From Streptomyces sp. NBC_01454 (lineage in GTDB: Bacteria > Actinomycetota > Actinomycetes > Streptomycetales > Streptomycetaceae): a stretch of 64,000 bases of DNA. The notes beneath the pieces are model-generated. The model was given only the letters and a program-made list of their open reading frames with translations. It was not told where the DNA came from and searched no databases. Within the stretch, counting starts at the first letter, position 1. Each line of letters begins with the position of its first letter. The stretch lies in contig NZ_CP109460.1 in the NCBI RefSeq assembly GCF_036227565.1, forward strand, positions 2,418,001 to 2,482,000. The letters run 5' to 3'. Of the stretch, positions 7,145 to 59,252 are shown in pieces. The translations under genes and the position numbers were made by a program.

Positions 7145-7404
7145 CCAGCACAGAAGCCCAGTCCTTCTCCAACGGCCTTACCTGGCACAAGTCGAGCTAC
7201 AGCGGCAGCGCTGGCGGCGACTGCATAGAGATCGCCTACGACTGGCGCAAGTCCAGCCACAGCGGCAGTGAGGGCGGCAACTGCCTCGAAGTGGCCACCT
7301 GCCCCCACGCCATCCACGTCCGTGACTCCAAGAACCCCGACGGCCCGTCGCTCACCCTGAGCGCCACCGCCTGGGCCGCGTTCCTCGCCGACGTCACCAA
7401 CTGA
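7141..7404 (+). CDS. DUF397 small protein with duplicated motif
   Basis: An 87-residue acidic protein coupled by a 4-bp ATGA overlap to the XRE regulator, its expected partner. DUF397 proteins are thought to modulate the DNA binding of their cognate WhiJ-like regulator. Here the diagnostic motif occurs twice: [17 protein letters not shown] near residue 15, then [17 protein letters not shown] near residue 36, followed by the usual HVRDSK and WAAFLADV end. Most family members carry a single motif. The DUF397 protein at 32705-32959 has the same duplicated arrangement, so this looks like a stable subfamily feature and not a local accident. Confidence 0.88.
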
Positions 7405-7421
7405 CCGCGCCCGGGGTGACG

Positions 7422-8426
7422 ATGAAGCACCGCCGACTCGGTACGCACGGGCCGAGCGTCTCCGCGCTCGGCCTCGGCTGCATGGGGATGTCGACCTCGT
7501 ACGGCGTCCCGGACGACGCGGAGTCCGTACGTACCCTGGACCGCGCGGTCGAGCTCGGCGTCACCCTGCTCGACACCGCGGACGCCTACGGGCGGGGCGC
7601 CAACGAGGAGTTCCTCGGCCGCTGGCTGGGCACCCGTACTGCCGCGCAGCGGGACGGGATGATCATCGCGACCAAGTTCGGGCTGCGGCACGACGCCGCG
7701 ACCGGGCGGGTGAACGAGGTCGACTCCTCCGCCGCCTGGGTGCGCGAGGCCTGTCACGCCTCGCTGCGCCGCCTCGGTACGGACCGTATCGACCTCTACT
7801 ACCTGCACCGCCGCGATCCGGCCGTCCCCATCGAGGAGACCGTCGGCGCGATGGCCGAGCTCGTCGCCGCCGGTTCCGTGCGCCATCTGGGCCTCAGCGA
7901 GGTGAGCCCGCAGACGCTGCGCCGGGCGCACGCCGTCCACCCCATCAGCGCCGTACAGCTGGAGCACTCCCTCTTCACACGCGATGTCGTGGAGGGCGAG
8001 ACGCTGGCGACCTGCCGGGAACTCGGCATCGGCGTCGTGGCGTACTCCCCGCTCGGGCGCGGCATGCTGACAGGCGCGCTGGCATCTCGCGACGACCTCA
8101 CCACCGAGGACGCCCGGCGCCGCTGGCCGCGGTTCTCCACGGAGAACATCGACCGCAATCTGCGCCTCGTCCAGGCCGTCCGGACCATCGCCGAGTCCCT
8201 CGGCTGCACCCCGGCACAGGCCGTCCTCGCCTGGCTCCTCGCCCAGGGCGAGGACATCGTCCCCATCCCCGGCACCAAACGCCGTGCCTACCTGGAGGAG
8301 AACGCGGCAGCGGCCGGGATCGCACTCGACCCCGAGCAGACCGCCCGGCTCCGGGCGGCCGTGCCCGACGGTGCCGTCGCCGGGGAACGCTACCCGCTCG
8401 CCGCCCTGGAGCGACTGGGCCACTGA
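7422..8426 (+). CDS. Aldo/keto reductase
   Basis: A 334-residue NADPH-dependent oxidoreductase with the full AKR catalytic tetrad: Asp51 and Tyr56 (DTADAYG), Lys85 (IATKFG) and His129 (YYLHRRD). The C-terminal PIPGTKR motif binds the cofactor's 2'-phosphate. It resembles the AKR13/YajO-like group that reduces aldehydes and ketones; the physiological substrate is unknown. The ATG at 7422 directly precedes the conserved KHRRLG start and has GGGGTG just upstream; GTG at 7416 is an in-frame alternative. It lies 17 bp after the DUF397 gene, in the same direction, and so may be co-transcribed, although no functional link is obvious. A small GCCCG/CGGGC hairpin follows the stop (8428-8439), facing a convergent gene. 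Confidence 0.9.
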
Positions 8427-8444
8427 AGCCCGGTCGGGCGAGGC

Positions 8445-10103: not shown

Positions 10104-10254
10104 CGCATCGCTCCCGTACGCCCCCTTCCCGTCCAGCCGTCGGGACGATCATCCGCCGACCCGCGCCGCCGGACGACTCCAGGAGGCCCGAATGCGGGTA
10201 CGGCGGCCCCCGGGACCGCAGACCGGAGGCGGCCGCGGCTCGCCCTGACCCATC

Positions 10255-10272
10255 GTCTACAGTCTTGTAGAC
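10255..10272. promoter_or_regulatory. Perfect inverted repeat, candidate operator
   Basis: GTCTACA-GTCT-TGTAGAC is a perfect 7-bp inverted repeat in the 272-bp divergent region before the COG4705 membrane protein. The TACA...TGTA core resembles sites of BlaI/CopY-type winged-helix repressors. No such regulator gene is adjacent, so the cognate factor would act in trans. It is too short for a terminator. Confidence 0.45.
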
Positions 10273-10375
10273 CAAAGCCGGGCAGTGACCACAAACGCGC
10301 GTGGTCGGCTGCACGGCGCCCGACATGCAGAAGGTTGCCGACACGGCGCACCGCGCCGGGAGGGCGGACAAGACG

Positions 10376-11221
10376 ATGGCGCAGTCGAGCAGCGAGGCGC
10401 TGGCACGGCCCGTGGGCGGGGATTGGACCCCCACCCCCGCACCCGAGGGTGGACACGGACCGGGCTGGAGCAAGGTACCGCAGGTCACGGCTTTGTTCTG
10501 GGGAGTGAAGGTACTCACCACGGGCATGGGCGAGACGGCCTCGGACTACCTCGGCCGGACGCTCGGACCGATACCCGCCGGCGCCCTCGGGCTGGCCGGG
10601 CTGGTGACCCTGCTGGTCCTCCAGTTCCGGACCACCCGCTACCGGCCCTGGGTCTACTGGTCCGCCATCGTCATGGTCAGCGTCTTCGGCACGATGGCCG
10701 CCGATGTCGTGCACGTCGTGGCCGGCATCCCCTACACGGTCTCGGTCATCGCCTTCTCCCTCGGCCTGGCCGCGCTCCTGACCGCCTGGTACGTGTCCGA
10801 GGGAACGCTGTCCATCCACAGCATCCGCACCCGCCGCCGCGAGACCTTCTACTGGGCGACGGTGCTCGCCACCTTCGCCCTCGGCACCGCCGTCGGCGAC
10901 CTCACCGCGGGCACCCTGCGCTGGGGCTACCTGCCCTCCGGCATCCTGTTCACCGCCCTCATCGCGGTGCCCGCACTGTCCGGACGCTTCCTCGGCCTCA
11001 ACGCCGTCGCCGCCTTCTGGTGGGCATACGTACTGACCCGCCCGCTCGGGGCCTCCTTCGCCGACTGGATGGGCGTCTCCACCTCCCGCGGCGGCCTCGG
11101 CTGGGGAACGGGCCCGGTCACCCTGACCCTCATCGTCCCGATCGTGCTGCTCGTCGGCTACCTGGCGATCAGCCACAAGGACACCCCGCCCGAGCAGCAG
11201 GCCATGGGAACCACCGCCTGA
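10376..11221 (+). CDS. COG4705-type multi-pass membrane protein
   Basis: A 281-residue integral membrane protein with about eight hydrophobic helices. It carries the motif KVLTTGMGETASDYL near the first helix, and later TYLP-type loops such as RWGYLPSGILF and GRFLGLNAVAAFWWAYVLTRPLGASFADW (quoted in parts; the TRPLGAS/ADW element is typical). This is the uncharacterised membrane-anchored COG4705 family. It may be involved in metal or envelope stress, but no function is established. ATG at 10376 was preferred to earlier in-frame starts because of a GGGAGG upstream, although spacing is long. The gene is followed 20 bp later by a perfect 15-bp hairpin and is probably monocistronic. Confidence 0.8.
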   Translation: MAQSSSEALARPVGGDWTPTPAPEGGHGPGWSKVPQVTALFWGVKVLTTGMGETASDYLGRTLGPIPAGALGLAGLVTLLVLQFRTTRYRPWVYWSAIVMVSVFGTMAADVVHVVAGIPYTVSVIAFSLGLAALLTAWYVSEGTLSIHSIRTRRRETFYWATVLATFALGTAVGDLTAGTLRWGYLPSGILFTALIAVPALSGRFLGLNAVAAFWWAYVLTRPLGASFADWMGVSTSRGGLGWGTGPVTLTLIVPIVLLVGYLAISHKDTPPEQQAMGTTA

Positions 11222-11241
11222 GGGCGAAAAGAACAGCAGGC

Positions 11242-11274
11242 TGCACTCGGCCCCACTCTGTGGGGCCGAGTGCA
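11242..11274. terminator. Perfect 15-bp hairpin terminator
   Basis: The arms TGCACTCGGCCCCAC and GTGGGGCCGAGTGCA pair perfectly around a 3-base TCT loop, starting 20 bp after the membrane protein stop. It lacks a long T-tract, as is usual for Streptomyces. The remaining approximately 250 bp to the next gene (11275-11522) is unusually AT-rich and shows no supported gene. Confidence 0.8.
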
Positions 11275-11522
11275 CGCATTATGGCTGAGATGGTGACCGG
11301 ATCTGTGAACGTAAAGTCAATTTCTGCACTTCTCGACACAGCAGAATTCATCTTGACTGCCTGACGCGGATGCCGGATCTCCCATGGGCAGCCTTGCCGC
11401 TACGTGGCATTGCGTTTTCCCAGTGAGACCGCCACAGTATTTCCACTTTTCGCCGGGCACACAGAAGCTCAGAGCAGCGGTGGAGGGCCCGACCGGAGGG
11501 TGGCGGGACTGCGCCAATGTGG

Positions 11523-11912
11523 TCAGCCGTCGATGGCACGTCCTGCTTCCAGGCCAGCCTCCGTACTGCGAAGCCAGCAGGGCTCGAAGCGGTCCAGGGA
11601 AGTCAGCTCGACCCACTCATCCGAAAGATGTTCTAGGATCTTTTGAGTGCCGCCCGGCCAGTCGAGGAAGTCATATTGATCGGCATTCGAAGTCGAGAGC
11701 TCGCCAGCTTTCATGAGCCCGCTGGAGAGAAGGAACTTCACGATCAAAAGCGCGGCTTCCTTGATGTCACGAGAGGCCGGTTCGCCTGGCTGATTCCACC
11801 AGGATTCCTTCTCACTCTCCACGAGAGCGACAACGGTAGTGAGCCCCACCCAATCTTCGACCCCTTGAAAAAGCACTTCCTCTACCACCGGATTTTCCAA
11901 AGAGACCATCAT
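11523..11912 (-). CDS. Putative immunity protein of polymorphic toxin locus
   Basis: A 129-residue acidic protein, MMVSLENPVVEEVLFQ..., with no signal or membrane segment and no family I can name. Its ATG at 11912 overlaps the stop of the toxin-like gene (ATGA), the arrangement expected of a cognate immunity gene translated from the same mRNA. Base composition is lower in GC than in the neighbours (codons such as GAA, AAA, TTT and TCG-poor runs), suggesting recent acquisition. The assignment as immunity rests on position, size and acidity only. It could instead be an unrelated hypothetical protein. Confidence 0.6.
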   Translation of the reverse strand: MMVSLENPVVEEVLFQGVEDWVGLTTVVALVESEKESWWNQPGEPASRDIKEAALLIVKFLLSSGLMKAGELSTSNADQYDFLDWPGGTQKILEHLSDEWVELTSLDRFEPCWLRSTEAGLEAGRAIDG

Positions 11913-13129
11913 TTCCCTCCCTTGGGGACGTGAATCTTAAAACTCCCCTTGCCTGCGGCAGCGCCATTGATATCGATAGTGTCACCACCCGAACCGGAAA
12001 TGGTCCTGTATTGTACCCTCGTTCCATCCGGGCGTATGTAAAATGTTGCCTTCTCTCCGGGTGCGGGTTTCGGTGCCCCGTCCGTGAGCTTTTCCCAAAT
12101 TTTGTCCAGATCTTCTTGAGGGCGAGTCCTTACAGGCATTTTTCGTCCCGTGTTCTTACCCAGCGCGGCACCGTTGTTTTCGAGGATCTCGTCGGCGGAG
12201 AGATCCTCGATGGGAGTGAGGCCGCCCTCGGGGGGCGGCGCCTCGTTTGATCCACGTCCTCCGCCCCCGCCACGCCCTCCGCCGCGTCCGCCCACGCCGG
12301 CGGGCTCGCGCGCTTCGGTTTCGGCGAGTTCGCGTTCCAGGACCTGGCCGACTTCAGTGGTCTCCGCGTCGACCGCTTCGAACTCGGGCACACCGTCGGC
12401 AGCCGCCTGGAGGTAGACCTCCAGATCGGCGATCATGTCGGTGCCGATGGCAGCAATGGAATCATCGAGGGCGACCTCGACCCCGCCGAGGATCGCGGCG
12501 GCTTCCGCGCTGTCGAGAGCGGCGGCTCCAGCGTCCGAGCCGCCGCCGGTGAACGGGGTCAGCAAGACGCCCACGATGGTCGTGACGGTGATCGCAATTC
12601 CAGCCTCAGCGAGATTCGACTCCGTCTCACTGTGAGCCTCGTCGATGGCGTGAGCGAAAGACTCACAGGCTTTTGCGAGTTCGTCGCAGGCGTGCTTGGC
12701 TGCGGACAGCGGTGCCTTGCCCGCGCGATGACCGCCTTGCCATATCTGCGCCCAGAAACCGGCCATGGCGTCAAGGGAGTCATCATCGCTGTTGTCCGTG
12801 ATCGAGCGCACCTGCTGGTGCAGGTCGTTGCCGAGGTTGTCGATCTCAGTAGCTGCAGTTCGGTAAGCGGCTGCTGCTGCGCGCAGCTTGTCCTGGTGGC
12901 CGTTGGGCCAGTACTTCGCGATGACGTCGGGAACGTCGCTGTGTCCCGGCCCGATGGCGGAGGCCGCATCGGGGTACATGATGTCGGTGACCACGGGAGG
13001 CGCCGGGTACTGCTCCGGCCCGCCCTTCCCACCCTTGGCATTGGAATGGTGGTCGGCCTTCAGGTAGTTGTTGGCCGTGGTCACCAGCCCGGTGGAATGC
13101 TGACCGATCGCGCGTACAGCGCCGGACAA
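11909..13129 (-). CDS. Polymorphic-toxin-like protein, part after an in-frame stop
   Basis: This 406-codon open frame (TTG at 13129, no convincing ribosome-binding site) is in the same frame as the 63-residue frame upstream and is separated from it only by a TAA at 13160-13162. The two are best read as one gene of about 480 codons broken by a nonsense codon. Visible parts: an N-terminal alpha-helical segment (AIGQHSTGLVTTANNYLKAD), a long helical WXG-type region, a hydrophobic stretch (AIAITVTTIVGVLLTPF-like), a Gly/Arg-rich linker ([14 protein letters not shown]), and a C-terminal module of about 100 residues containing FYIRPDGTRVQYRT and GDTIDINGAA, ending KIHVPKGGK. This layout is that of contact- or type VII-dependent polymorphic toxins, with the toxin domain last. 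The toxin type was not identified. Confidence 0.62.
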   Translation of the reverse strand: MSGAVRAIGQHSTGLVTTANNYLKADHHSNAKGGKGGPEQYPAPPVVTDIMYPDAASAIGPGHSDVPDVIAKYWPNGHQDKLRAAAAAYRTAATEIDNLGNDLHQQVRSITDNSDDDSLDAMAGFWAQIWQGGHRAGKAPLSAAKHACDELAKACESFAHAIDEAHSETESNLAEAGIAITVTTIVGVLLTPFTGGGSDAGAAALDSAEAAAILGGVEVALDDSIAAIGTDMIADLEVYLQAAADGVPEFEAVDAETTEVGQVLERELAETEAREPAGVGGRGGGRGGGGGRGSNEAPPPEGGLTPIEDLSADEILENNGAALGKNTGRKMPVRTRPQEDLDKIWEKLTDGAPKPAPGEKATFYIRPDGTRVQYRTISGSGGDTIDINGAAAGKGSFKIHVPKGGK

Positions 13130-13159
13130 GGTACGGAAGAGGGCGTTGGCAGCCGGATC

Positions 13160-13351
13160 TTACTTCCTGCCGAACTTGTGGCCGTAGTCGTCGTTGCCCG
13201 CCATACCTTCGGCGTTCTGCAGCGCGGTGTTGAGGGTTGAGGAGATGGAGTCGAGGCGGTCCTGGCCCTTTGCGAATTTAAGTGCAACGCGGTGCAGATC
13301 CTCGGGATGCAGGTCGATCGGCTTCCCGCCGTGAGCGGATGAGCGGCTCAC
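13160..13351 (-). CDS. N-terminal fragment of split toxin gene
   Basis: A 63-residue frame starting at GTG 13351, with a strong GGGGAGGGGG upstream and a 4-bp overlap (GTGA) with the end of the WXG100 gene, so its start is credible. It reads IDLHPEDLHRVALKFAKGQDRL then ALQNAEGMAGNDDYGHKFGRK (in parts) and ends at a TAA. Immediately after that stop the same frame continues DPAANALFRTLSGAVRAIGQ into the 406-codon frame. A Tyr codon (TAC or TAT) would be a one-base neighbour of TAA at this point. It is likely the amino-terminal secretion module of the toxin. It could be translated alone as a truncated peptide. Confidence 0.6.
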   Translation of the reverse strand: MSRSSAHGGKPIDLHPEDLHRVALKFAKGQDRLDSISSTLNTALQNAEGMAGNDDYGHKFGRK

Positions 13352-13647
13352 CGGCCCCCTCCCCACATGCGCAGGTTGGCGGTGCGCGCCGCCGAGTAAT
13401 TGCCGTGCGCGGTGTGCACGGTCTTGTGCAGCGCGCGGACGGCTCGGTGCAGACTGCGCGAGGCGGAACGCCACTGCTGGTAGTAGCCTCCGGACGCCTC
13501 CCGGGCGTCTCCGTCCCAGCTTTCGGACACCCGCTTCACGGCCTGGTCTAATTCCGTCAGATGCTCCTGGAGCGACTTGGCTATGGAATCGAGTTCTTCG
13601 GTGGCCTCAGCCAAGGTCCCGAAATGGACCTGCAATTTGCCTGACAT
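13348..13647 (-). CDS. WXG100-family (ESAT-6-like) protein
   Basis: A 99-residue helical protein with the central W-x-G turn (SWDGDA, Trp44/Gly46) between two amphipathic helices, the signature of WXG100 proteins secreted by type VII systems or acting as partners of larger effectors. ATG at 13647 follows a GGGGGAAG ribosome-binding site; longer in-frame extensions upstream lack WXG features. It is the first gene of a three- to four-gene operon (WXG100, toxin, immunity-like). Its stop overlaps the next start by 4 bp. No EccC or other secretion machinery gene is in the window, so the apparatus must be elsewhere. Confidence 0.85.
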   Translation of the reverse strand: MSGKLQVHFGTLAEATEELDSIAKSLQEHLTELDQAVKRVSESWDGDAREASGGYYQQWRSASRSLHRAVRALHKTVHTAHGNYSAARTANLRMWGGGR

Positions 13648-13985
13648 GTGCTTCCCCCAGTGGTCAACGGAAGGAAGTCTGCCAAGTAGCGGGGCCCAAT
13701 TTGGTCGATATGCGCCACCACAGGGGCTTTGGCTGGCCAGATTTTGGCGTGATCGTGGACCGTAATTGATCAAGATTAGATGAAGCAAATCTGGCGCAGA
13801 GCATGGGGCACAAGCAAGACATGGTCCTGCTCGGCCACCCAGCGATGCCGGTCTCACCAGACCTGCGGACACACCCTTTACGGCGGCAGCAACGGGCGCC
13901 CAATCTCCCAAAACCGTCCGGAACAATCCAACTCCACGGCCCTCCCCATGTCTGCCAACATCCGGCTCGCCGCTCAGGACATGGT
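13648..13985. other. Low-GC intergenic region upstream of WXG100 operon
   Basis: These 338 bp lie between the WXG100 start and the end of the F420-type oxidoreductase gene. They are clearly lower in GC than the rest of the window. They must contain the promoter of the WXG100-toxin operon, but no confident -35/-10 pair, RNA or open frame with a ribosome-binding site was found. Confidence 0.4.
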
Positions 13986-32997: not shown

Positions 32998-33244
32998 GTC
33001 CGCCGGTGATCCGGCCGACCCACCAAAGAACCCGGGAAGAGAACCCCACCCACCTACCGCCGCCCCAACTCCTCACCCCATCGGGTGACTTGGGCGCGAG
33101 AGCGTCCGGAATGCGGTTACGCTCATCGCAGTTCCACTGCGACACCAGCACAGACCCAGCACCGACAACCGCACACAGAACGGCCCCCGGCGGGACGGCA
33201 ATCCCGATCCGAGGGCCTGATCACAAGGAAGCAGTACCTTCCCG

Positions 33245-37122: not shown

Positions 37123-37137
37123 GGCGGAGAGGCCCTA
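37120..37137. terminator. Small hairpin joining two convergent stop codons
   Basis: TAGGGC and GCCCTA flank a 6-base loop. The left arm contains the amidase TAG and the right arm contains, on the other strand, the desulfurase TAG. It is short, so termination function is uncertain. Confidence 0.4.
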
Positions 37138-38304
37138 GCTGAGGCCCGCGCTCCGCGCCCGTTCCACGACCGGGCCGATGGCCTGGGCCAGGGCCGCCAC
37201 GTCGTCCGCCGTGGAGGTGTGGCCCAGGGAGAACCGCAGGGTGCCGCGGGCCAGCTGCGGGGACATGCCGGTGGCGAGCAGGACGTGGCTGGGCTGGGCG
37301 ACGCCGGCGGTGCAGGCGGAGCCCGTGGAGCAGGCGATGCCCTGGGCGTCCAGGAGGAGCAGCAGGGAGTCGCCCTCGCAGCCGGGGAAGGAGAAGTGGG
37401 CGTTGGCGGGGAGCCGGCCGGCCGGGTCGGGGTCGCCGCCGAGGACGGCGTCCGGGGCGGCGGCGCGCACCGCCTTGACCAGGTCGTCGCGCAGCGCGCC
37501 GATGTCGCGGGCGAAGTCCGCGCGGCGGGTGACGGCGCTGTGGCCGGCGGCCGCGAAGGCGGCGATGGCGGGGGTGTCGAGGGTGCCGGAGCGCACCTGC
37601 CGCTCCTGGCCGCCGCCGTGCAGCACCGGCACCGGGGCGTACTCACGGCCCAGCAGCAGGGCGCCGATGCCGTACGGGCCGCCGATCTTGTGGCCGGAGA
37701 CCGTCATCGCGGCGAGCCCGGAGGCGGCGAAGTCGACCTCCAGCTGGCCGACGGCCTGCACCGCGTCCGCATGCAGCGGAATCCCGAACTCCGCGGCCAC
37801 GTCGGCGAGTTCACGGACCGGCTGGACGGTGCCGATCTCGTTGTTGGCCCACATGACCGTGGCGAGCGCGACATCGGCGGGGTTGCGGGCGATGGCCTCG
37901 CGCAGCGCGCCGGCATGCACCCGGCCGTAGCTGTCGACCGGCAGCCATTCGACCCGGGCGCCCTCGTGCTCGGCGAGCCACTCCACGGCGTCGAGGACGG
38001 CGTGGTGCTCGACGGGGCTGGCGAGGACGCGGGTACGGGACGCGTCGGCGGCCCGGCGCGCCCAGTACAGGCCCTTGACCGCGAGGTTGTCGGCCTCGGT
38101 GCCGCCCGCGGTGAAGACGATCTCGCTCGGGCGGGCGCCGAGGGAGGCGGCGAGGGACTCGCGCGCCTCCTCGACGGTGCGCCGGGCCCGCCGGCCGTCG
38201 GCGTGCAGCGAAGACGCATTGCCGGTGACGGTCAGCTGGGCGGTCATCGCCTGCACCGCCTCCGGGAGCATCGGGGTGGTGGCGGCGTGGTCGAGGTAAA
38301 CCAT
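37135..38304 (-). CDS. Cysteine desulfurase (IscS/NifS class)
   Basis: A 389-residue PLP enzyme with [11 protein letters not shown] at the N-terminus, the Schiff-base Lys in [10 protein letters not shown], and the catalytic Cys loop [11 protein letters not shown]. The class I-type loop fits IscS-like proteins that deliver sulfur to MnmA. Its physical association with mnmA supports that pairing. ATG at 38304 has no strong ribosome-binding site; a GTG lies nine bases upstream. It is divergent from the truncated hydrolase across a 216-bp gap. The S. coelicolor-type order mnmA-desulfurase is kept with an amidase inserted. Confidence 0.95.
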
Positions 38305-38499
38305 GGTGCGCACGATTCTACGAGCTGGCGCGACGGGCTCCGGGGGCGCATCCGCAGCGCGCGGAAGCTTGGCGTGCCGGGGCGTGGGTTCGCCGGGCCG
38401 GGACGCGGTGCGGGGCGCGGCGCCGGGCGGCCCGCACCCGCTCTCCGCCCTCGACACCTCTCGACACCCCTCGACGCCCCTGTAAGGAGTAACTAGCCT

Positions 38500-38527
38500 G
38501 ACGGTCATGACTGGACGGTCATGACTG
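38500..38527. repeat. 14-bp exact tandem duplication at a start codon
   Basis: GACGGTCATGACTG occurs twice in tandem (38500-38513 and 38514-38527). It duplicates the ATG of the downstream hydrolase: the first ATG is followed within four codons by a TGA that overlaps the second. AAGGAG lies about 20 bases upstream of the first ATG, which is too far for efficient initiation. Confidence 0.85.
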
Positions 38528-39186
38528 GCTGGGTTCTGGACCGTACGTTCCGCACGGCGTCGGGCGACGAGGCGCGATGGGCCGCGCTGGGGGCCGGGCA
38601 GGATGTGTCGCTCGGCGCCCAGGCGCGCGTCTTCACGGAACTGCTGGCGCACTGGGAGCCGGCCGGGACCGGGACCGGGCCGGCCGTGGTGGCGCACGAC
38701 TTCGGCGGCTGTGTGGCCTTGCGGGCGCATCTGCTGGGCACGCACCGCGAGGTGTTCGGGCAGCTGCCGCCGGAGCTCCACCGGGCGCTGGTGCGGGAGT
38801 ACGTGTCCTCCGCGAGTCACGCCGGGCTGCCCCCGGCCGTCCTCGACCGGCTGGTCGAGCCCTGGTGCACGGACGAGGGGCAGCCGGCGTTCTACCGGCA
38901 GATCGGGCAGAACGACCAGCGGTTCACCGACGAGATCCAGGAGCGGTACGGCGAGCTCGCGCTGCCCGCGCTGATCTGCTGGGGCACCCGGGACACCTGG
39001 ATTCCGCCCGCCAGGGGCCGTGAACTGGCGGCGCGCATCCCGGGCTCCCGGCTGCGGCTGATCGACGGTGCGGGGCATCTGGTGCAGGAGGACGCCCCGG
39101 CGGAACTCACCGCGGCGCTGGGGGAGTTCCTGGGGGAGGACGGCGGGTCGGGCCCCGCGGCGGCTACGGGCCAAGGCGGCGGCTGA
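38521..39186 (+). CDS. Truncated alpha/beta hydrolase
   Basis: A 221-residue protein, [20 protein letters not shown]..., of the haloalkane-dehalogenase/epoxide-hydrolase-like group. Its nucleophile element is AHDFGG (Asp nucleophile) and the C-terminal GAGHLVQED holds the His. Compared with the family it is short. After DEARWAALG it jumps to [14 protein letters not shown], leaving out the oxyanion (HG) strand and about 40 residues. After LRAHLLG it jumps to [10 protein letters not shown], omitting the usual VDPVALAPWG strand. Both gaps are in frame. The enzyme may therefore be inactive. Its 3' end overlaps the giant convergent gene by 23 bp. Confidence 0.72.
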
Positions 39187-42100
39187 GGGTGCGGAGAGCG
39201 GCGAGCATCTCGGCCGCCCCGGCCTCCGCCGCCGTGAGCGCGTCGGAGGCGGTGAGCGACTCCAGGGCGGCGCGCAGACGGGACAGACCGGCGCGCGGGG
39301 TCCGGCCCGTCCGCTCCATCTCACGGACGTGGCCGTCGAGTTCGGCCGCCAGGGCGTCCAGGGCATCCAGGGCGTCCGGTGACGTGGCCGGGTCGGCGGT
39401 CCGCGGACCGGTCCCCTCCTCCGCGGGCGGCCGCAGCCGCAGCCGCAGCTGATCGCTGAGCGTCCGGACGGCCGCCGTCAGGTCGCGCAGTGCCGTGCCG
39501 GTGCGGGCGGTCTCCGCGGCGCGCGAGAGCCCCGGCCGGTGCGGACCGGCGGGCGAGGGGTCGGGCTTCTCCCGGAGCAGGGTGCGCAGTTCGGCGGTCT
39601 GCGGGGCGGCGAAGTCCTCCAGGACGGCGAGCGCCTCGCGCCAGTTCGCGCGGGCGCCCTGCTTCCGTCCCAGGGCGGTCCGGGCGTGTCCCCCTGCGGT
39701 CAGTGCATCGGCCCGCCACCGCTCCCCGCCCGGTACCAGCAGGCTCTCCGCCGCGTCCTCGGCGGCCGTGACCGCCTCGGCGGGCCGGACCAGGGCAACC
39801 ATCGCCTCGGCCATCCGGCAGCGGGTGCGGCCCGCCCACAGGCGCTGCCGGTCCGCCTCGAACAGGGGCAGTGCCCGGGAGAGTTCACGGAGCGCGCCGG
39901 CGGGCCGGCCGGCGGACGACAGTGCCACGGCGTGGGCGTAGTGGCCGTGCGCGAGCCGCGGGGATCCGGCGGCGGCGTCGCGGTGGAGGCCGACGCTCCG
40001 CTCGGCGAACAGCACGGCCTCGTAGCTGTTGCCGGTCGCCGCCCAGAGCCGGGCCAGCGCGCCGAGCACCAGGGCCTCGCCGAGTGCGTCACCACGGCGC
40101 CCGCACTGCTCCCATGCCGAGGTGAGATGCCGTTCCGTGGTGCCGTGCCGCGCCTGGTGCAGGGCGATGAGCCCGCGCGCGTACGGGGCCCGGAAACGGG
40201 TCAGCGCATCCCCGCAGCGGCCGGCCAGCTCCTCCGCCCGGCGCGCCGCGGCCTCGGCCTCGTCGGCCCTGCCCAGCGCGAGGTACGCCTCGGCCAGCGC
40301 CAGCCGGGCCCGGCCCTCGGCCCGGGCGTCACCCGCCCCCGCCGCCCGCGCCGCCACGGTCCGGGCGGCCGGCTCGAAGGCGGCGGAGAGCGCCCCGCAG
40401 TCCGCCGTCGTCCCGGCGAGCAGCAGGAGGTCGGCGGCGGTGCGGACGGTCCGCGGGGAGCGGAGCACGGCACGGCGGACGAGGCCGAGCAGCCGCGGCA
40501 GCTCCTCGGCCCAGAAGGCCAGGGCCTTGGTGCGGTCCTTCGTCGTGGGCAGGGGGCCGGGCGAGGAGACCCGGGCCAGGTCCTGGAGCGTCCGCTCCCC
40601 CGGGTACCGCAGGGCGTACATCTCCCGGCCCGCGGCCAGGTACCAGGCCAGCAGCCGCGACAGCGCCGCGTCCCGCTCCGCCGCGGGCAGTTCGCGCCCG
40701 GCGGCCTCGCGGGCCGGGTCCCGCACCTCGCCGGCGAGGCGGTGACGGTCGCCGGCCGCTTGCTCCAGGGCGCCGGCCGCCCTCAGCTCGTCCAGCAGCG
40801 CCCGGGTCCGCGGTGCGGTGTCGTCCAGCAGCGCCACCGCGGCGCCGAAGGGGAGGCCGGCGGGCGGGGTGTCCGCGAGGTCGGCCATGGCGAGCAGGCG
40901 GACGGCGCGGCGCGCGGGTTCGCAGAGCTGCCCGTCGAAGCGCGGGGGCACCGGCTCGGGGCGGCGCTGCGGCGGCACCACCCCGTCCGGCCGGCCGGGT
41001 ACCGCACCCCCCAGCCGCTCCAGCACCGGGCTGGCCAGGACGGCGAAGGCCCGCGCCGAGGCCCGCAGCCGCAGCTCCCCGTCCTCATCGCCCATCAGGA
41101 CCGGGAAGTCGGGCAGCCGCCCCATGTACGGCTCCAGCGACCGGCCGACCGCCTCGACGACCTCCACGGCCGCCTCCGCGCCCAGCCCGCTGAACAGCAA
41201 CTCCCGTACGCCGGGCCGGAAGTCGTAGACGGGCTCGGCGGCCGGGCCCGGTGGCGGTGCGCCCAGGGCGCGGTCCAGGGTGTGGGCGGCGGAGGTGTCC
41301 CGGGCCCCCGCGGTGCGCTCCAGGAGGCCGCCGAGGAGGATCTCCGCCACATGGGTGGGTCCGGCGTCGCGCATCGTGGCGGCGCGCACCAGCTGCATCA
41401 GTGGGGTGGTCAGGGGGCGGACGGCGGAGAGGCGGACCGCGAGCCGGTAGGCCTCGGGGGAGAACGCGCCGCGGAAGTGCGCCAGCAGCTCCTCGGCGCT
41501 GCCCTCGGGCCGGGCCGGCCCCCGGTGCCCGGGCAGTTCGTCCAGCAGCACGGTGTCGATCAGATGCGGCACTCCGGGGCGGGTGAGCAGTCCGGCCCAC
41601 TGCTCCAGCGCGGACGCGGTCGGATGCAGCACGGGCAGCGCGAGCACCCCCGCCGCCTCCGGGTCGCGCTCGCCGCTGAGCGGATCGCAGACGAGGAGGC
41701 GGCCGAGGCCGTCGAACTCGCCGGGCGCGGCCAGCAGCCGGGGCCGGGCGTCCAGGGCGGTGCCGCGCCACAGCCGCCGGGGCAGCGGGTTCAGGACGGC
41801 CAGCGGGCCGCCGCTGCCCCATGCGGCCAACGCGCGGACGGTCTGCGGGCTGCGCCAACCCGGGCTGGTGCCGTCGGTCAGCAGGAAGGTCACCGAGGCG
41901 CCCGCGGACCGCCGGCGGTGCACCGGGCCGCTCGGGTTCCGGGGGTCGATCCGCTGGATCCGGACGGAGCGGAAGACCGTGCTCCGGGCGAGCAGCGCGC
42001 GCAGTTCGGCGGCGAGCGGCCCCCATACCTGCATGGCGGCCGAGCAGTCCACCAACAGCACGGCCGACCAGCGCCGTTCCTGCTCCGGGCGGGCGACGAC

Positions 42101-42748
42101 ATCGAGGAAGCCGGTCTCGGCGGCGAGCCGGACGGTGGCCTCGACGTCGGTGACGGTGCGGTGCGGGTGGTCACGGGATCTGCGCAGCGGACGCAGCGCC
42201 CGGCCCAGCTGCTGGGCATCGGGCAGCGCACGCCCACCGGGCACCCGCGCGGGCCGGGCCCGCTCCGCGTCGTGCGCACCGCCCTCACTCCCCCAGGCGT
42301 ACAGGGCACGCCGGGGCGGGCCGGGGGGCGTCAACGGCCGTGTGAGGTCGGGTCGTTGAGGGTCACAAAGGGAAGCCGAGGGGTCGGTGGCGTCGGCAGG
42401 GTCGGTGGCGTCGGCAGGGTCGGTGGAGTGGGCCGGGTCGGTGGAGTGGGCAGGCGTCGCGGGTGCGGCGTCCACCGACTGGACGTCAGGTGCCGGGTGT
42501 GAAGCGGCCGTTGTGTCGTCGTCACCACCGGCCTCCGCGCCCGCCCGGCGGCCCTCCCCTCCGGCCCCTTCCCCGTCCCCCGTCCCACCCACACACTCCC
42601 CCGCATCCCCCAGCTCCCCCGCGTCCCCCGGTCCCCCGGCCGCCGTACGCCCCTCCATCACCCGGGCCAGCCACAGCACGTCGAGGAGTTCGGTGGCCCC
42701 GAGGTCGTAGCCGGCGGCCGACATCGCCTGTCGCAGTCGGTCGATCAT
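39164..42748 (-). CDS. SAV_2336/vWA-type protein with TPR region
   Basis: A 1194-residue protein, third component of the cluster. The N-terminus ([28 protein letters not shown]) resembles the small helical head of SAV_2336-type proteins. A Pro/Thr/Asp-rich linker with 6-residue repeats ([12 protein letters not shown]) follows. About residues 170-480 resemble a degenerate von Willebrand factor A domain: [16 protein letters not shown] replaces the usual DxSxS, and [12 protein letters not shown] follows. The rest of the middle has AAA-like helical material, and about 830-1130 has TPR helices ([26 protein letters not shown]). ATG 42748 overlaps the MoxR stop (ATGA). Probable scaffold or sensor of the ternary system. 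Confidence 0.78.
42382..42453. repeat. 18-bp in-frame repeats in the vWA protein linker
   Basis: Four 18-bp units encode ADATDP twice and AHSTDP twice in the linker of the SAV_2336/vWA-type gene. The units are multiples of three, so copy-number change would keep the reading frame. Confidence 0.75.
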
Positions 42749-43761
42749 GGCGCCATGGGCTCGTCGAGGCGGTGCAGCACGGCGCCGAGCAGCTCGTCCT
42801 TGGTGAGGTCGGCGCCGCTGATGCGCAGGTGGACGGCGGCCAGCAGCTGGTCGGTGGCCAGTGTCTGGGTCTTCGCGCGCTGGTGGAAGACCTCGATCAG
42901 GTCCTCCGCCGCGGCGACCGCCCGCTCGCCCAGGTTGTGTTCGATGATCTTCCGCAGCCGGTCGCCGGTCGGCTCCGGCAGATCCAGCCGCACGCACCGG
43001 CGCAGGAAGGCGGGCGGGAAGTCCCGTTCGCCGTTGCTGGTCATCACGACCACCGGGAAGTGGGCGCAGCGCACCACCCCGCGGTGGATCGCGACCCGCT
43101 CCCGGCTTCCGCTCAGCAGGACCTGCACGTCCTGCTGGTGCTCGGGCAGCCGGGCCAGCTCCGGGATCTCGAACTCCCCCTCCTCCAGGACCACCAGCAG
43201 GTCGTTGGGCAGGTCGATGTCGGCCTTGTCGAGTTCGTCGACGAGCAGGACCCGGGGCCGGCCGGCGGCCAGTGCGCTGCCGAGCGGGCCCAGGCGCAGA
43301 TACTGGCCGATGTCTCCGGCGGCCGTGGCGCGCGGGGTCCTGGGCCGGCGCACCGGGCCGTGGGACGCCTCGTGCTCCCGGCGCAGCGAGGCCTCCCGGA
43401 GGCGGCCCACGGCGTCATAGCGGTAGAGGGCGTCCTGGAGCGTGGAGCGGCTGTTGACCGACCAGCGCAGCACGTCGCCGAGCCCGAGTTCCTCGGCGAC
43501 GGCATGGGCCAGCGAGCTCTTGCCGGCGCCGGGGCGGCCGGTGACCAGCAGCGGACGGTGCAGATGCAGCGCCGCGTTGACCACGGAGATCTCGTTGCGC
43601 TCCAGGAGGTAGGGCGCACGGGACGCCGCCGTCCCCCCTTCGGCCGGGAAGCGCCGCCAGGGTGGTGGCGCGGGCAGGTCCGCCGGGCCGCGGAACACCC
43701 ACCAGGCTTCCGGCTCCGCCTCCGGGTCGTGGGGTGCGCCTGCTGCGCTCTGTCCGGTCAC
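42745..43761 (-). CDS. MoxR-type AAA+ ATPase
   Basis: A 338-residue AAA+ ATPase. Walker A GRPGAGKSS lies at about residues 75-83 and Walker B VLLVDELDKAD at about 171-181. The sensor segment is VVMTSNGERDFPPAFLRRC, with the Arg-finger-type RRC. GTG at 43761 has GAGGAG eight bases upstream; a longer in-frame start at 43833 is rejected. MoxR ATPases act as chaperones that remodel partners through vWA-domain adaptors, and the vWA gene is translationally coupled 3' of it. It is the NTPase core of the proposed ternary system. A 72-bp gap separates it from the trypsin-VMAP gene. Confidence 0.92.
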   Translation of the reverse strand: MTGQSAAGAPHDPEAEPEAWWVFRGPADLPAPPPWRRFPAEGGTAASRAPYLLERNEISVVNAALHLHRPLLVTGRPGAGKSSLAHAVAEELGLGDVLRWSVNSRSTLQDALYRYDAVGRLREASLRREHEASHGPVRRPRTPRATAAGDIGQYLRLGPLGSALAAGRPRVLLVDELDKADIDLPNDLLVVLEEGEFEIPELARLPEHQQDVQVLLSGSRERVAIHRGVVRCAHFPVVVMTSNGERDFPPAFLRRCVRLDLPEPTGDRLRKIIEHNLGERAVAAAEDLIEVFHQRAKTQTLATDQLLAAVHLRISGADLTKDELLGAVLHRLDEPMAP

Positions 43762-43833
43762 CGCACGTTCTCCTCGTTCTTCGCTGTGTACTGCCGTCCA
43801 CGGGGCACCGTGTTCACGTGCGCACGCGGGCAT

Positions 43834-46008
43834 TCAGGGCTGGGTCAGCACCCAGGCGTCCGGGGCGAGTTGTGGGGGGCGGTGGTCGGGCGCGTCGTAG
43901 AGCAGGGACAGCCGGCGGCCGTGGTGGGAGGTGCTCTCCGGCTCGGCCATCGCCTTGGCCCGCTCCAGGCGCACCACCTCGGGGACCTCGGTGTGGTCGG
44001 CGCCGTCCACCAGGGCCAGCAGGTCCTGGGCGAGCTGTGCGCCGTGTTCGGCGCGGTGCCACAGGACGGTGTGGACGCCCGCCTGGACGCACTGCCGCAG
44101 CAGCGTGCCGTGGTGGTCGGGCGAGCAGCACACGATCACCGTCCCGGCGTCGCGGTGCACCTCCAGTTGGGCGCGGGCGACCATCCGGTCGGTGTGCCGC
44201 TCGTCGAGGACCAGGCGTTTGGCGTGCGGCAGGGCCGCGGTGCGCTGTTTCCATCCGGCGTAGCTCTCCCGGGAGCGCTCCGTGGTCCGCACCACCACCC
44301 GGCGGGTGATCCCCGGGACGAACGGCCCGTCCTCGTCGCCGTCGGGTGACTCCCACGAGTCGACGTCCAGCCCGAGCCAGGCGGACGGCAGGAAATACTC
44401 CACCAGGGCGGTCTCCGGGTCCTCCCGGACCTCGGTGCGCAGCACCCGGCGGATGTCGTCGACCACCTGCTCGCTGCCCGCCTCGGCATCGCGGACCAGC
44501 GCGAGACGGTGCGTCCGGCAGTCGGTGAGGGTCCAGATCTGGTAGGTGAAGCGGCGGCCGGTGGCGGTGGGCAGCAGCTCCACCTGGACGCGCGGGGCGG
44601 CGGGGGCGGCGGCGCCCGGCAGGCCCGGCGCCGGGGTGCGGACCGGGGCGGCGGCCGCGACCACATCGGCGCGGAACTGGCTGACCGCCGCCTCGTCGAC
44701 GCCCGAGCGGGCGCCCACGCGCTCGACCCAGGCGTCCAGGTCCTCGGACGGATAGGCGCCGGCCGCGCTCTCCTCGACGCTGATCCGCACCACCCCTTGC
44801 AGCAGCGGCGGCACGGGCGCGCCGGTGAGGGAGCTGAAGCCCTCCAGTGCGTCCATCACGTCGGCCAGGCCGGCGACGGCGGGCAGTTCCGGGGCGTGCG
44901 GGAGGACCCGTTCGAGGAGGGTGCGCGCATCGGTACGGGTGCAGTGGGCCAGCAGGCCGGACAGATCGCGGCGTTGACGAGTGGTCAGGTACTCGCCGGG
45001 GCGGACCGTGCGGGCGGCGCGGCGCAGCCGTTCCCAGTCCTCGCGGGCGCCGTGGTGGCCGGACCGGGGGTGCGGCTCGTAGGGGCCGGCGGCGGGCAGC
45101 GGCTCGTAGTCCCGTACGAGGTCGAGGAGTTCGGGGATGCCACGGCGGACGCCGACCGCCAGGCCGACCAGCCGTTCGAGGTCGGCCGCCGGGCCCGCCG
45201 AGGGTCTGCCCAGCCGGGCGGCGAGCCGTTCTTCGCAGGCCAGTACCGCCTCGCGGCCCTGGAGTACCCGCTCCAGCGCGGTGAGCAACTGCTGCACCCC
45301 GCGCCGGGCGGTGGGCACCGCCGAGGGCGGCAGCTCGGGGAGTTCGGCCTCGATGGCCGGGACGCTGATGGCGTACATCGTCGTCGGCGGGGCCCCGGGG
45401 GCGGCCGGTTCCGGAGCGTGGCGCACGGCCGCGACCAGACCGACGACGGCCTGCCGGGCGCGGTCCCACAGCGGCCCGCCGCTGAAGCCCTCGGTGACCT
45501 CGGCGCCGCCGAGCACGTCCAGGGCGATCCAGGGCGGGGCCGAGACCCGGGGCACGGCGCGCACGGTGGGCAGCGGATTGCCGCTGGCCCATAAGGCGAT
45601 GGTCTCGTTGGCGTAGCTGTGCTGGAGGAACGGTGCGGGCTCGGCGCCGGCGGGCGGGACCCCGTCCAGCTCCAGGACGGCCAGATCGCCGTGGTAGGGC
45701 ACCTGCCCGGGCCGGACCGGGGCGCTCGTGGTGGCCGTGGCCCGCGGCGGCACCCACATCTCCCGGACGACCCGCCCGGTCAGATCGCGGCCGGCCGCGA
45801 CATGGGGCAGCCGGAGGGTGACCGGGTCGCCCCCGCCCGGGGTGTCCTGGGCGAAACGGTCCCTGCCCAGTGCGCTGTTGACGACATGGGCGCAGGTCAG
45901 CACGAGCCGCTCGGCGACGAGTACGCCCGCGCCGACCGCCCGGCCGTCGTGGCGTAAGGAGACGAAGGACTGCTGGAGCGGGGTGTCCGGGCCTGCGCCT
46001 GCGATCAC
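43834..46008 (-). CDS. Trypsin-like protease fused to VMAP-type C-terminal region
   Basis: A 724-residue cytoplasmic protein (no signal peptide). The N-terminal 200 residues form an S1-type serine protease with a complete triad: His41 (LTCAHVV), Asp108 (HGDLAVLEL) and Ser176 (GFSGGPLW). A middle helical part follows. The C-terminal 300 residues, with PTATGRRFTYQIWTLTDC, AWLGLDVDSWE and VVRTTERSRESYAGWKQR, resemble the VMAP-C (vWA-MoxR-associated protein) domain. GTG 46008 overlaps the upstream stop (GTGA). It would be the effector/adaptor of the system, with regulated proteolysis as likely output. Confidence 0.8.
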   Translation of the reverse strand: MIAGAGPDTPLQQSFVSLRHDGRAVGAGVLVAERLVLTCAHVVNSALGRDRFAQDTPGGGDPVTLRLPHVAAGRDLTGRVVREMWVPPRATATTSAPVRPGQVPYHGDLAVLELDGVPPAGAEPAPFLQHSYANETIALWASGNPLPTVRAVPRVSAPPWIALDVLGGAEVTEGFSGGPLWDRARQAVVGLVAAVRHAPEPAAPGAPPTTMYAISVPAIEAELPELPPSAVPTARRGVQQLLTALERVLQGREAVLACEERLAARLGRPSAGPAADLERLVGLAVGVRRGIPELLDLVRDYEPLPAAGPYEPHPRSGHHGAREDWERLRRAARTVRPGEYLTTRQRRDLSGLLAHCTRTDARTLLERVLPHAPELPAVAGLADVMDALEGFSSLTGAPVPPLLQGVVRISVEESAAGAYPSEDLDAWVERVGARSGVDEAAVSQFRADVVAAAAPVRTPAPGLPGAAAPAAPRVQVELLPTATGRRFTYQIWTLTDCRTHRLALVRDAEAGSEQVVDDIRRVLRTEVREDPETALVEYFLPSAWLGLDVDSWESPDGDEDGPFVPGITRRVVVRTTERSRESYAGWKQRTAALPHAKRLVLDERHTDRMVARAQLEVHRDAGTVIVCCSPDHHGTLLRQCVQAGVHTVLWHRAEHGAQLAQDLLALVDGADHTEVPEVVRLERAKAMAEPESTSHHGRRLSLLYDAPDHRPPQLAPDAWVLTQP

Positions 46009-46475
46009 GGCGTCGCCGTCCCCCCGGATCCGTCCGTGCCGCTGCCGAGGTTCCAGGTGGCGGACACCTTGAAGCTGGCCTCGCCACTGCCGGAGAACAC
46101 CCCCAGGCTCAGATCGGAGCCGAGCGTGACCCCGAACTCGACGGTGACCGCGTCGGGGCGGTGGCTGCCGGCGGAGATCGAGCGGTGGATCTGGCCGAGG
46201 ACGCCGCCGAGCGGGCGCAGGGCCTCTTCCAGGGCCTCGCCGCCGCGGGTCAGCGCCCGGCTCATCCGGGCGTCCACGCTGACCGGCAGGGCGGCGCCGT
46301 AGCCCTCGGGAAGCTCCAACCCGTCCTCGTCGCCGGGGTGCCGGCCCCGGCCCCCGTCCGCCGGCTGCTGTCCGGTGGACCGCTCGTGTGTGCCGGACCG
46401 CTGCCCCGCGGCCGGTTGCCCGTCCCGCAGCCAGACCACGGTCGCGTCGTCGATTCTGAGAGCCACATCCCCCAT
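46005..46475 (-). CDS. Trypco1-like (trypsin-co-occurring) domain protein
   Basis: A 156-residue acidic protein, MGDVALRIDDATVVWL..., whose second half (EALEEALRPLGGVLGQIHRS, VTVEFGVTLGSDLSLGVFS and GEASFKVSATWNL) matches the small CU044_2847-type/Trypco1 domain recalled as co-occurring with trypsin-like proteases in ternary conflict systems. An insert of about 45 residues, rich in Arg, Gly and Asp, lies near the front. ATG at 46475 has no strong ribosome-binding site. Its stop overlaps the protease start (GTGA), so it is the first gene of a coupled four-gene operon. Confidence 0.75.
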   Translation of the reverse strand: MGDVALRIDDATVVWLRDGQPAAGQRSGTHERSTGQQPADGGRGRHPGDEDGLELPEGYGAALPVSVDARMSRALTRGGEALEEALRPLGGVLGQIHRSISAGSHRPDAVTVEFGVTLGSDLSLGVFSGSGEASFKVSATWNLGSGTDGSGGTATP

Positions 46476-46596
46476 GGCGAGCAGTCTGGCATGCGCCGGT
46501 CGGCCACGGCCTGCTCTTTGCGTCACACTTTTTCACCAACGCCCCCGGGACCAGCTGTGGAACGGGGCCGGACGCGACGCCGGGGCGGGCCGGGGG

Positions 46597-47475
46597 TCAG
46601 CCCTTGAGCACCGCGCGCGCCAACTGCCGTGACTGGGCGACCAGTCGGTCCTGGGAGTCCCAGACCTCCGCGTCCTCCTCCAGGAATCCGCCGGCCATGT
46701 TGCGGGTGGTGATGGCGACCCGCAGCGAGCCGGGGGCCGGGCGGTGGCGCACATGGGCGGTCAGTTCGACGGTGGGCACCCAGCCCAGCAGGCCCATCTC
46801 GAAGGCGGTGGGCGGCAGCGCGTCGACGGTCAGCAGCAGGGAGAGCGGGTCGGGGTCGCGGCCGTCGGCCAGACCGAACCAGGCGCGCATCTCGCCCTTG
46901 CCGGAGGGGGCGCCGACCGCCCAGCCGGCGGTCTCCGGGTCCAGGCGGAGGTCGAGCCGCTCGGTGATGGCGGTGCTGCCGGGGATGACGCTGCCCGCGC
47001 CGGGGGCGAGGGGGGTCCCCCCGCGCCGTTCAGGCGTGGCGGAGGCGCCGAGGCAGTGCTCGTACGGCGGGATGGCCGGGGGCTTGGCGGTGGTGCGGAC
47101 GTCGTCGGGCAGGGCGTCGAGGTCGCCGTACGAGGCGAGCACCCGCAGCCGCTCGACCTCGTTGCCGTCCGCGTCGGTCTGCAGGAGGCGGGCGGTGCCG
47201 GTCGACATGGTGCGGCCGGTGCGGACCACCTCGGTGCGGATGACGGCGGGGCCCGGGACCGAGGCCGTCAGGTAGTGCGCGGTGACCGACATCGGGTCGG
47301 GGTGCGGGAGGGCGTCGCCCAGGGCCCGGCCCATGAGGGCGAGGAGATAGCCGCCGTTGACCGCCTGGATGATCGTCCAGCCGGCGGAGAGGTGGGCGTC
47401 ATAGACGCCCGGGGCGCGGCGGCTGACCGCCGTGTCGCGGTCGAACTCGCTGTTGCCAAGGGTCACCAGAGCCAT
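46597..47475 (-). CDS. Acyl-CoA thioesterase (TesB/hotdog family)
   Basis: A 292-residue double-hotdog protein. The N-terminal half has GWTIIQAVNGGYLLALMGRAL and SVTAHYLTASVPGPAVI, and the second half has GEMRAWFGLADGR and TVELTAHVRHRPAPGSLRV. This is the thioesterase-family arrangement of actinobacterial TesB-like proteins hydrolysing acyl-CoAs. ATG 47475 is used; GTG 47484 is an alternative. It is divergent from the TRIC-type channel with a 96-bp region holding a TACCG/CGGTA palindrome at 47500-47511, a plausible TetR-type site. Confidence 0.9.
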   Translation of the reverse strand: MALVTLGNSEFDRDTAVSRRAPGVYDAHLSAGWTIIQAVNGGYLLALMGRALGDALPHPDPMSVTAHYLTASVPGPAVIRTEVVRTGRTMSTGTARLLQTDADGNEVERLRVLASYGDLDALPDDVRTTAKPPAIPPYEHCLGASATPERRGGTPLAPGAGSVIPGSTAITERLDLRLDPETAGWAVGAPSGKGEMRAWFGLADGRDPDPLSLLLTVDALPPTAFEMGLLGWVPTVELTAHVRHRPAPGSLRVAITTRNMAGGFLEEDAEVWDSQDRLVAQSRQLARAVLKG

Positions 47476-58822: not shown

Positions 58823-59040
58823 CCTCCCCGTCCGGTTCTGTTCCGGTTCGAGTCCGTCCCGTACCCGCAGAGTGTCAAGAAAAGGTAATGCCCATCAAGG
58901 TGGTTCCCCGATCCGCCCACGTCATGGGCGGGGCACCCACAGGGGCTCCTGTATCCGGCGAACCCGTGCAATGATGTGGCCGCCAGGTGCACCATGCGTC
59001 TCACTTGTGCACCGCCAACTCCATACCGGCCGCTTGAACC

Positions 59041-59252
59041 CGCGCGGGAGAGTCCCCGGCCGCCATGGGCGGGGCGCCGAAGGAGCAAGTCCTCCCTTGA
59101 ATCTCTCAGGCCCCTATACCGCGCGGGCTAGGCAGATCTGAAAAGCGAGCCACCGCCCGGTTCATGGGATGGCTCCACCCAAGGTGCAAACCGGGTCCGT
59201 TCGCGGGATCCCGGTGAACCTCTCAGGTTCCGATGACAGATGGGGAGAACGT
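59041..59252 (+). ncRNA. Tandem glycine riboswitch
   Basis: Two aptamer-like domains precede gcvT. The first has CGGGAGAGTCC, GCGCCGAAGGAGCAA and GAATCTCTCAGGC. The second has GGTGAACCTCTCAGG and CGATGACAGATGGGGAGAAC. These are conserved glycine-riboswitch blocks. Glycine binding by both aptamers would switch on gcvT-gcvH-glyA. Boundaries are approximate. Confidence 0.88.

Follow-up and report, generated by a model that had tools for sequence, protein, structure and literature searches.

Streptomyces sp. NBC_01454 has a genome of 9.46 Mb, from which we analysed a stretch of 64,000 nucleotides (contig NZ_CP109460.1, positions 2,418,001 to 2,482,000), hereafter called the window. Reading of the sequence confirmed four minus-strand genes there, encoding a Trypco1 protein, a trypsin-VMAP protein, a MoxR ATPase and a vWA component. 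Judged by its sequence, the locus is a VMAP-ternary (MoxR-vWA) system of the Trypco1/trypsin type, and it is ordinary as a member of that family. Systems of this kind were already predicted in 2020; the new point is that AfsR supplied the changeable tail of the vWA protein.

The origin of the tail was examined by several searches. In the NCBIfam comparison residues 606-1059 of the vWA protein align to positions 539-982 of the 986 of the AfsR model (E 1e-84), with a score of 285.2 bits that falls short of the full-length cut-off of 1430. The S. coelicolor AfsR structure (PDB 8k60) matched over AfsR 542-988 with tail residues 606-1058 (E 1.3e-54). A search of the tail against its own genome gave as best paralogue a gene of 998 codons (39% identity, E 3.9e-61), which is AfsR according to the NCBI model (1640 bits, cut-off 1430), and the next paralogue followed at 2.7e-4. 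A generic TPR tail was rejected, since AfsR is far ahead of all the other paralogues in the genome. At the level of sequence, residues 606-1058 clearly derive from the winged helix and TPR half of AfsR.

This half is common to the window tail and to AfsR (PMC10936776; PDB 8k60, 8jke), whereas AfsR also has a SARP domain and a NOD; the window copy has lost both, contains no Walker A motif and is fused to a vWA protein in a protease operon. In AfsR itself, as described in PMC10936776, the NOD and TPR parts inhibit the SARP domain and ATP binding relieves the inhibition. A preliminary description of the locus had reported a 1194-residue vWA/TPR protein. The length was right, but what was called the TPR half is the C-terminal half of AfsR and the changeable part of the protein, which had been missed. 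The features of the locus are listed in Table 1.

Table 1. Genes and protein features of the VMAP-ternary locus, with positions in the window.
Feature	Position	Strand	Evidence and remarks
Trypco1 protein, 156 aa	46005..46475	-	domain at residues 68-142; PF19493 E 5.7e-17, NF041216
Trypsin-VMAP protein, 724 aa	43834..46008	-	GTG start; protease 26-191, middle region, VMAP-C 486-707; PF13365, PF20028
Trypsin-like protease domain	45436..45933	-	Trypsin_2 E 2.8e-7 (Pfam)
Protease triad H41, D108, S176	45888-45886, 45687-45685, 45483-45481	-	alignment
VMAP-C domain	43888..44553	-	PF20028 E 4.7e-34, 118.7 bits, cut-off 27
MoxR AAA+ ATPase, 338 aa	42745..43761	-	GTG start; Walker A GRPGAGKS; AAA_5 E 1.1e-6
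vWA component, 1194 aa	39164..42748	-	NCBIfam and sequence
vWA protein, constant N-terminal half	41012..42748	-	helical start and linker, then vWA (D234, D292) and a C-terminal extension ending near residue 579; NF041121 E 3.5e-95
Linker, 26 residues (580-605)	40934..41011	-	Pro/Gly-rich, 4 Arg/Lys
Captured AfsR C-terminal half (winged helix and TPR), residues 606-1058	39575..40933	-	NF053617 E 1e-84; no SARP, NTPase or Walker A
C-terminal extension, residues 1060-1194	39167..39571	-	no Pfam match; beyond the AfsR match

The four genes overlap by four bases in two places, as the preliminary description had stated: GTGA at 46008-46005 joins the Trypco1 stop to the protease start, and ATGA at 42748-42745 joins the MoxR stop to the vWA start. 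There is no overlap between the protease and MoxR genes, and an in-frame ATG lies upstream of the MoxR GTG start, at 43833. The complete protease triad was confirmed, its three residues being invariant in 15 of 15 aligned sequences, and inspection by eye of the protease N-terminus found no long hydrophobic stretch. Pfam AAA domains, together with the Walker A motif, likewise support the MoxR ATPase. The metal motif of the vWA domain had been called degenerate, which overstates its condition: D234 and D292, at the ends of strands 1 and 4 (strand positions deduced from the motif), are also invariant in all 15 aligned sequences, and the third position of the metal ion-dependent adhesion site (MIDAS) alone departs, with Ser changed to Ala in DCSAA. 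The vWA label rests on these aspartates and on a match to the SAV_2336 N-terminal model of NCBIfam, a family which we take to be the vWA component of VMAP-ternary systems; a Pfam search of the protein named no vWA domain. The extension at the very end of the protein (residues 1060-1194) is shared with the relatives G194 and G090 and with S. kronopolitis, S. sioyaensis and S. inhibens. A scan for promoters and terminators found nothing clearly above chance. PADLOC returned weak partial ATPase matches (best TRIP13 2.8e-6, IetA 2.4e-5) and a TPR match (0.033), and PHROGs returned ATPase families for MoxR and nothing else.

The assignment to the VMAP-ternary family with trypsin and Trypco1 had been made in the preliminary description, together with a proposed check for scattering of the four genes in relatives. 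The assignment holds, with VMAP-C recognized by sequence and the genes found together in the relatives. The order VMAP, MoxR, vWA on one strand is kept in the window and in 13 of 13 fetched relatives (the record L050 ends inside the vWA gene), so that the four-gene arrangement is not due to chance. The MoxR N-terminus carries WWVFRG (residues 20-25) and PPWRRF (33-38), which match the published VMAP-type motifs WxhapG and PsWRxa, with Pro in the 'small' place. At the start of the vWA protein E20, D23 and W26 are (nearly) invariant, with a spacing one residue shorter than the printed [D/E]xxx[D/E]xxxa, and in the extension that follows the vWA domain S430, E469 and R515 are invariant in 15 of 15 sequences, assuming that these correspond to the published S, E and R. 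Variable domains at the vWA C-terminus across the relatives are as expected of the family, and the Trypco1 gene beside the trypsin-VMAP gene is as expected of the subtype.

The VMAP-ternary systems of Kaur et al. 2020 (eLife, PMC7159879), reported there as widespread in multicellular bacteria, have the same gene order, the N-terminal trypsin of VMAP, the Trypco1 neighbour, the MoxR motifs and a variable vWA tail. They differ from the window in that the main text names no AfsR-derived tail: AfsR, SARP and BTAD have 0 occurrences in it, the supplement being outside that search. The same text names AP-ATPase-TPR, HTH and TPR tails, and parts of the present architecture may be in the supplement. 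In its FxSxx-type VMAP systems the vWA is fused to TPRs without an NTPase, as in the window, and the AP-ATPase is separate; in the window, in contrast, the TPR half is that of AfsR and the flanking genes compared are metabolic, although no search was made for peptide-processing genes. AfsR, SARP and BTAD are also absent from the main text of PMC8195603. Among the matches listed in a literature search of open-access main texts, no paper joined SARP or AfsR to MoxR-vWA systems by its title or abstract start, and none presented there an experimental test of a VMAP system, its trigger or its output.

The genome holds a second complete Trypco1/trypsin-VMAP/MoxR/vWA set on the minus strand (L052, G000:C1:2660000-2679999, about 5513-13664), whose vWA protein of 1141 aa gave no Pfam match at E 0.001. 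A third VMAP-C match, at G000:C1:873013, was regarded as marginal (27.1 bits, cut-off 27); its frame (L053:9531-10622) is a LuxR-type regulator in which Pfam found no VMAP-C at E 0.001.

The close lineage of the window system (VMAP at least 56% identical) was found in 14 of 199 sampled Streptomyces genomes, its own included. A MoxR search of 295 genomes revealed no further lineage member at 70% identity, and an order-wide sample gave a close match in 6 of 197 genomes, all Streptomyces, three of them new to the earlier set. Among the fetched relatives there are 12 complete vWA proteins, of which 11 have AfsR-type tails and one (G075) has a Schlafen group 3 helicase (E 1.5e-81). Locus L049 (10824-15671) shows the same core with a Schlafen group 3 helicase as vWA tail. 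A complete AfsR is present in some relatives (58-66% identity); in G149, G019, G006 and G015 the identity is 58-65% and an extra SARP stands in front, and the G019 copy was assigned to a 1.6 Mb plasmid. A full tandem-SARP AfsR fusion (61% identity) is likewise present on the megaplasmid of S. clavuligerus ATCC 27064, a known antibiotic producer (L124, 8451-17767). Loci from other VMAP lineages, 20 in number, served as a control; a vWA match was found in 15, none of which matched AfsR at E 1e-5, and no vWA match was found in the other five.

A larger set of 107 vWA relatives, sorted by BLAST, was taken from the databases. Since the query included the AfsR tail, only 7,991 candidates were scored and the E-value was cut at 1e-80, AfsR tails may be over-represented in this set. 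SARP was found in 72 proteins (two in 22 of them), the NOD stretch in 63, the winged helix and TPR in 78 and any of these in 83, while 21 have a Schlafen-type helicase instead and three have neither. P0199 and P0210, in which a STAND-TPR part is joined to a nucleoside phosphorylase, gave no match to the window tail and were left out of the AfsR-type count. The remaining 81 AfsR-type tails retain the winged helix and TPR in 76 cases, SARP in 72 and the NOD/NTPase stretch in 61. The five without winged helix and TPR are P0008 and P0010 (both marked partial by their source), P0203 (short), and P0205 and P0207, which have two SARPs and precomputed Pfam matches to a PQQ-type beta-propeller and no TPR half. 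The short type seen in the window accounts for 6 of the database relatives. The loss of SARP and NOD is recent, as records named S. sioyaensis show: two of them (P0126, P0128) are short, and a third, P0146, keeps a SARP and a NOD stretch on a vWA half 95.8% identical to that of the window. In two further vWA relatives, P0206 and P0208, precomputed Pfam matches place VMAP-C and a CHAT peptidase-like domain in one protein.

To describe the SARP parts, the contact residues of AfsR reported in PMC10936776 were mapped by alignment onto the relatives. The second SARP of the 22 tandem proteins keeps a median of 10 of the 12 DNA contacts, and the base-reading pair T88 and R92 is present in 21 of 22. 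The first SARP of the same proteins keeps a median of 5 of 12, with the pair in none, and the single SARPs (n = 50) a median of 3.5 of 12, with the pair kept in nine and absent in 41. The median number of RNA-polymerase contacts kept, out of 19, is 8 in second copies, 7 in first copies and 4 in single ones, and the second copies of one group of relatives (clade B, defined below) keep 15-17. The activation domain looks truncated in the first copy of G036 and in G064, G194 and G090, with 9-10 of the 19 contact places gapped; in a larger alignment no copy has 8 or more gaps, and the truncation rests on the smaller alignment and on the BLAST and Pfam ends. The tandem-SARP relatives can probably bind AfsR operators.

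Such binding would fit a transcriptional output, in which a protease- and chaperone-gated activator of the AfsR type responds to attack by switching on genes for antibiotics or of the AfsR regulon, and the window copy is a reduced offshoot. The well-preserved second SARPs and the RNA-polymerase contacts of clade B are consistent with it, and a chain with two SARPs could imitate the side-by-side dimer as which SARP acts (PMC10936776). Additionally, phage infection induces antibiotic clusters in Streptomyces, in S. venezuelae that for chloramphenicol (PMC10117723); secondary metabolites are likewise induced by phages (PMC10276819), and aminoglycosides are able to block phage (PMC9239200). Chemical defence is thus plausible as background. 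We nevertheless consider a transcriptional output quite unlikely. The window copy has no DNA-binding domain, the T88/R92 pair is absent from most single SARPs and from every first copy, and the low median of RNA-polymerase contacts over all 22 second copies means that many copies could bind DNA without activating.

For the analysis of origin, clade A was defined as the tails resembling that of the window, together with their hosts (G000, G064, G194, G090 and G036, with G048 as host), and clade B as the tails of G149, G019, G006, G015 and G096 with database relatives. In the tree of the winged helix/TPR part, the clade B tails nest in the resident AfsR of their own hosts' group (support 99/93 and 91/84), and those of clade A make up a group of their own, on long branches and external to every resident AfsR; a single tail clade was not rejected for this part (approximately unbiased (AU) test, p 0.123). 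The SARP tree unites the tails and the residents of clade A (94/87). Here a single capture of AfsR was rejected, with p 0.0118 for all tail SARPs, a grouping set before the SARP tree, and p 0.0089 when the second copies were taken together with clade A; this second grouping was picked after viewing that tree, and its p is hence only indicative. The winged helix/TPR test dropped five long rows (two outgroup paralogues and the tails of G036, G031 and G154) and the SARP test two (G031 and G154), all of which are included in the separate trees, and long branches call for caution.

Mean BLAST scores point in a similar direction for SARP: with clade B residents the second SARPs of clade B reach 319-362 and with those of clade A 284-297 (267 against 240 for G096), and for the SARPs of G036, G064, G090 and G194 the higher scores are those with clade A residents. 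The winged helix/TPR part in the window tail shows no preference for the AfsR of its own hosts (means 198 and 197), and that of G064 and G194 scores slightly higher against clade B. The SARP trees suggest that AfsR parts were captured from the resident afsR, or exchanged with it, more than once; the data agree with repeated capture and equally with gene conversion between the SARP part and the resident gene. As for a phage-borne AfsR as source or trigger, a search of 50,697 phage records gave matches in four, partial and unannotated, at 34-41% identity, all in phage contigs from human faeces (MT835530, MT835531, MT836527 and MT836681).

The ratio of non-synonymous to synonymous substitutions (dN/dS, Nei-Gojobori method) was calculated for the window against S. 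kronopolitis and S. sioyaensis, in both of which the frame of the tail is intact. The vWA half has 0.19-0.21, the AfsR half 0.37-0.45 and the C-terminal extension 0.48-0.57; against S. kronopolitis only, VMAP has 0.205 and MoxR 0.093. The tail is kept, yet it evolves faster than the vWA half. That it is a decaying remnant without function would agree with the SARP and NTPase parts being missing or reduced stepwise among the relatives; the frame kept intact in three species and the dN/dS of the AfsR half make this very improbable.

The cassette sits between a cysteine desulfurase and a thioesterase gene (window 37135-47469). On the thioesterase side 7 of 13 relatives share this neighbour, and in the other six neither flank was found nearby. 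In all 14 fetched genomes without the cassette at this place, three of which carry it elsewhere, the flanking genes lie 170-5857 bases apart, indicating a variable interval. The recurring thioesterase neighbour might be expected if the locus were no conflict system at all, and instead a housekeeping MoxR-vWA chaperone that matures or regulates AfsR signalling in development, as might the resemblance of the tail SARP parts to the AfsR of their hosts; known MoxR-vWA pairs are assembly chaperones, according to PMC7159879. A housekeeping role seems rather improbable, given the patchy occurrence of the lineage in the sampled Streptomyces, the replacement of the tail by a Schlafen-type helicase in a fifth of the database relatives (21/107) and the presence of the cassette on megaplasmids as well.

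We tentatively favour, at somewhat less than an even chance, a VMAP-ternary system in which the vWA protein has taken up the sensor half of AfsR and couples it to a protease gated by MoxR. A sensor is preferred because the winged helix and TPR are the part most often retained, because the clade of the window retained them alone and because P0205 and P0207 carry in their place propeller matches, that is, another binding superstructure. The AfsR-like part would bind the own partner of the AfsR TPR half, or an invader factor that tampers with AfsR. Binding would be relayed through the vWA domain to the MoxR ring, whose ATPase would remodel the complex and so free or activate the trypsin domain of VMAP, with Trypco1 as a putative adaptor or brake. 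In the tandem-SARP relatives the system may also act on transcription, and the window lineage would have kept the sensing part alone. Sensing by the AfsR half, output through the protease and any role against phage are what we infer here; the action conjectured in the preliminary description, with an invader signal, a MoxR gate and a protease that kills the cell, is close to the model in the literature.

A similar arrangement is described in PMC10907252 for VMAP systems with vWA targets diversified by diversity-generating retroelements (DGR), where a putative vWA sensor relays via MoxR to the N-terminal effector of VMAP, a trypsin. The binding domain in those systems is a hypervariable C-type lectin, whereas in the window it would be a captured host regulator. 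In addition, CARF-coupled VMAP-MoxR-vWA genes adjoin type III CRISPR loci (PMC10910872), which supports a conflict role for the family. Several points weigh against a sensing tail. The founding papers place effectors at the vWA C-terminus (PMC7159879; PMC8195603), and the second of them gives invader recognition to the third component and not to the vWA tail. SARP is kept in 72 of the 107 database relatives, so that sensing alone does not explain the commoner forms, and a dN/dS about twice that of the vWA half indicates that constraint on the tail is moderate. Finally, the position of the window-type part outside all resident AfsRs and its lack of BLAST preference point to an old or fast-evolving copy, which may no longer share the ligand of AfsR.

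The linker in front of the AfsR half, 26 residues long with four Arg/Lys, could instead serve a dominant-negative effector. Once triggered, the protease would cut this Pro/Arg linker, and the freed AfsR-like half would bind AfsR or its partners and either shut the AfsR pathway or block an invader that needs AfsR. PMC7159879 proposes that effectors are released by proteolysis and that inactive copies act as decoys or dominant negatives, and the window copy is an inactive part of a protein that has an active copy in the same cell. We regard such an effector as unlikely, since the tail shares only 38-39% identity with the resident AfsR and since linkers of only 1-2 residues occur in the tandem-SARP proteins P0006 and P0007. 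Cutting of the linker is hence not a general feature, and release of the tail by it is not supported as a general rule.

A sensing tail could also take the form of a decoy, an idea that we put forward as possible though doubtful. The host's AfsR would have been captured repeatedly as an integrated decoy or sensor, either the AfsR signal itself or tampering with AfsR would trip the MoxR-gated protease, and the tandem-SARP relatives, S. clavuligerus ATCC 27064 included, would also act directly on AfsR operators. The integrated decoys of plant NLR receptors would be a parallel. If this were true, an antibiotic switch would stand under immune guard, with a direct wire between immunity and chemical warfare.

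The changeable module being the host's own, structurally studied antibiotic regulator, it comes with known operators, with DNA and RNA-polymerase contacts and with natural variants that keep or lose each part, and the question of what VMAP systems sense becomes testable. It also suggests, in a genus renowned for its antibiotics, that conflict systems and antibiotic production may be linked.

Three other elements of the window were recorded on the plus strand. An alpha/beta-hydrolase-like frame, recognized by eye at 38521-39186, is convergent with the vWA gene and overlaps its 3' end by 23 bases. A match to the Streptomyces small RNA scr4677 lies at 32999-33244 (67.9 bits), and a glycine riboswitch at 59035-59131 (67 bits).

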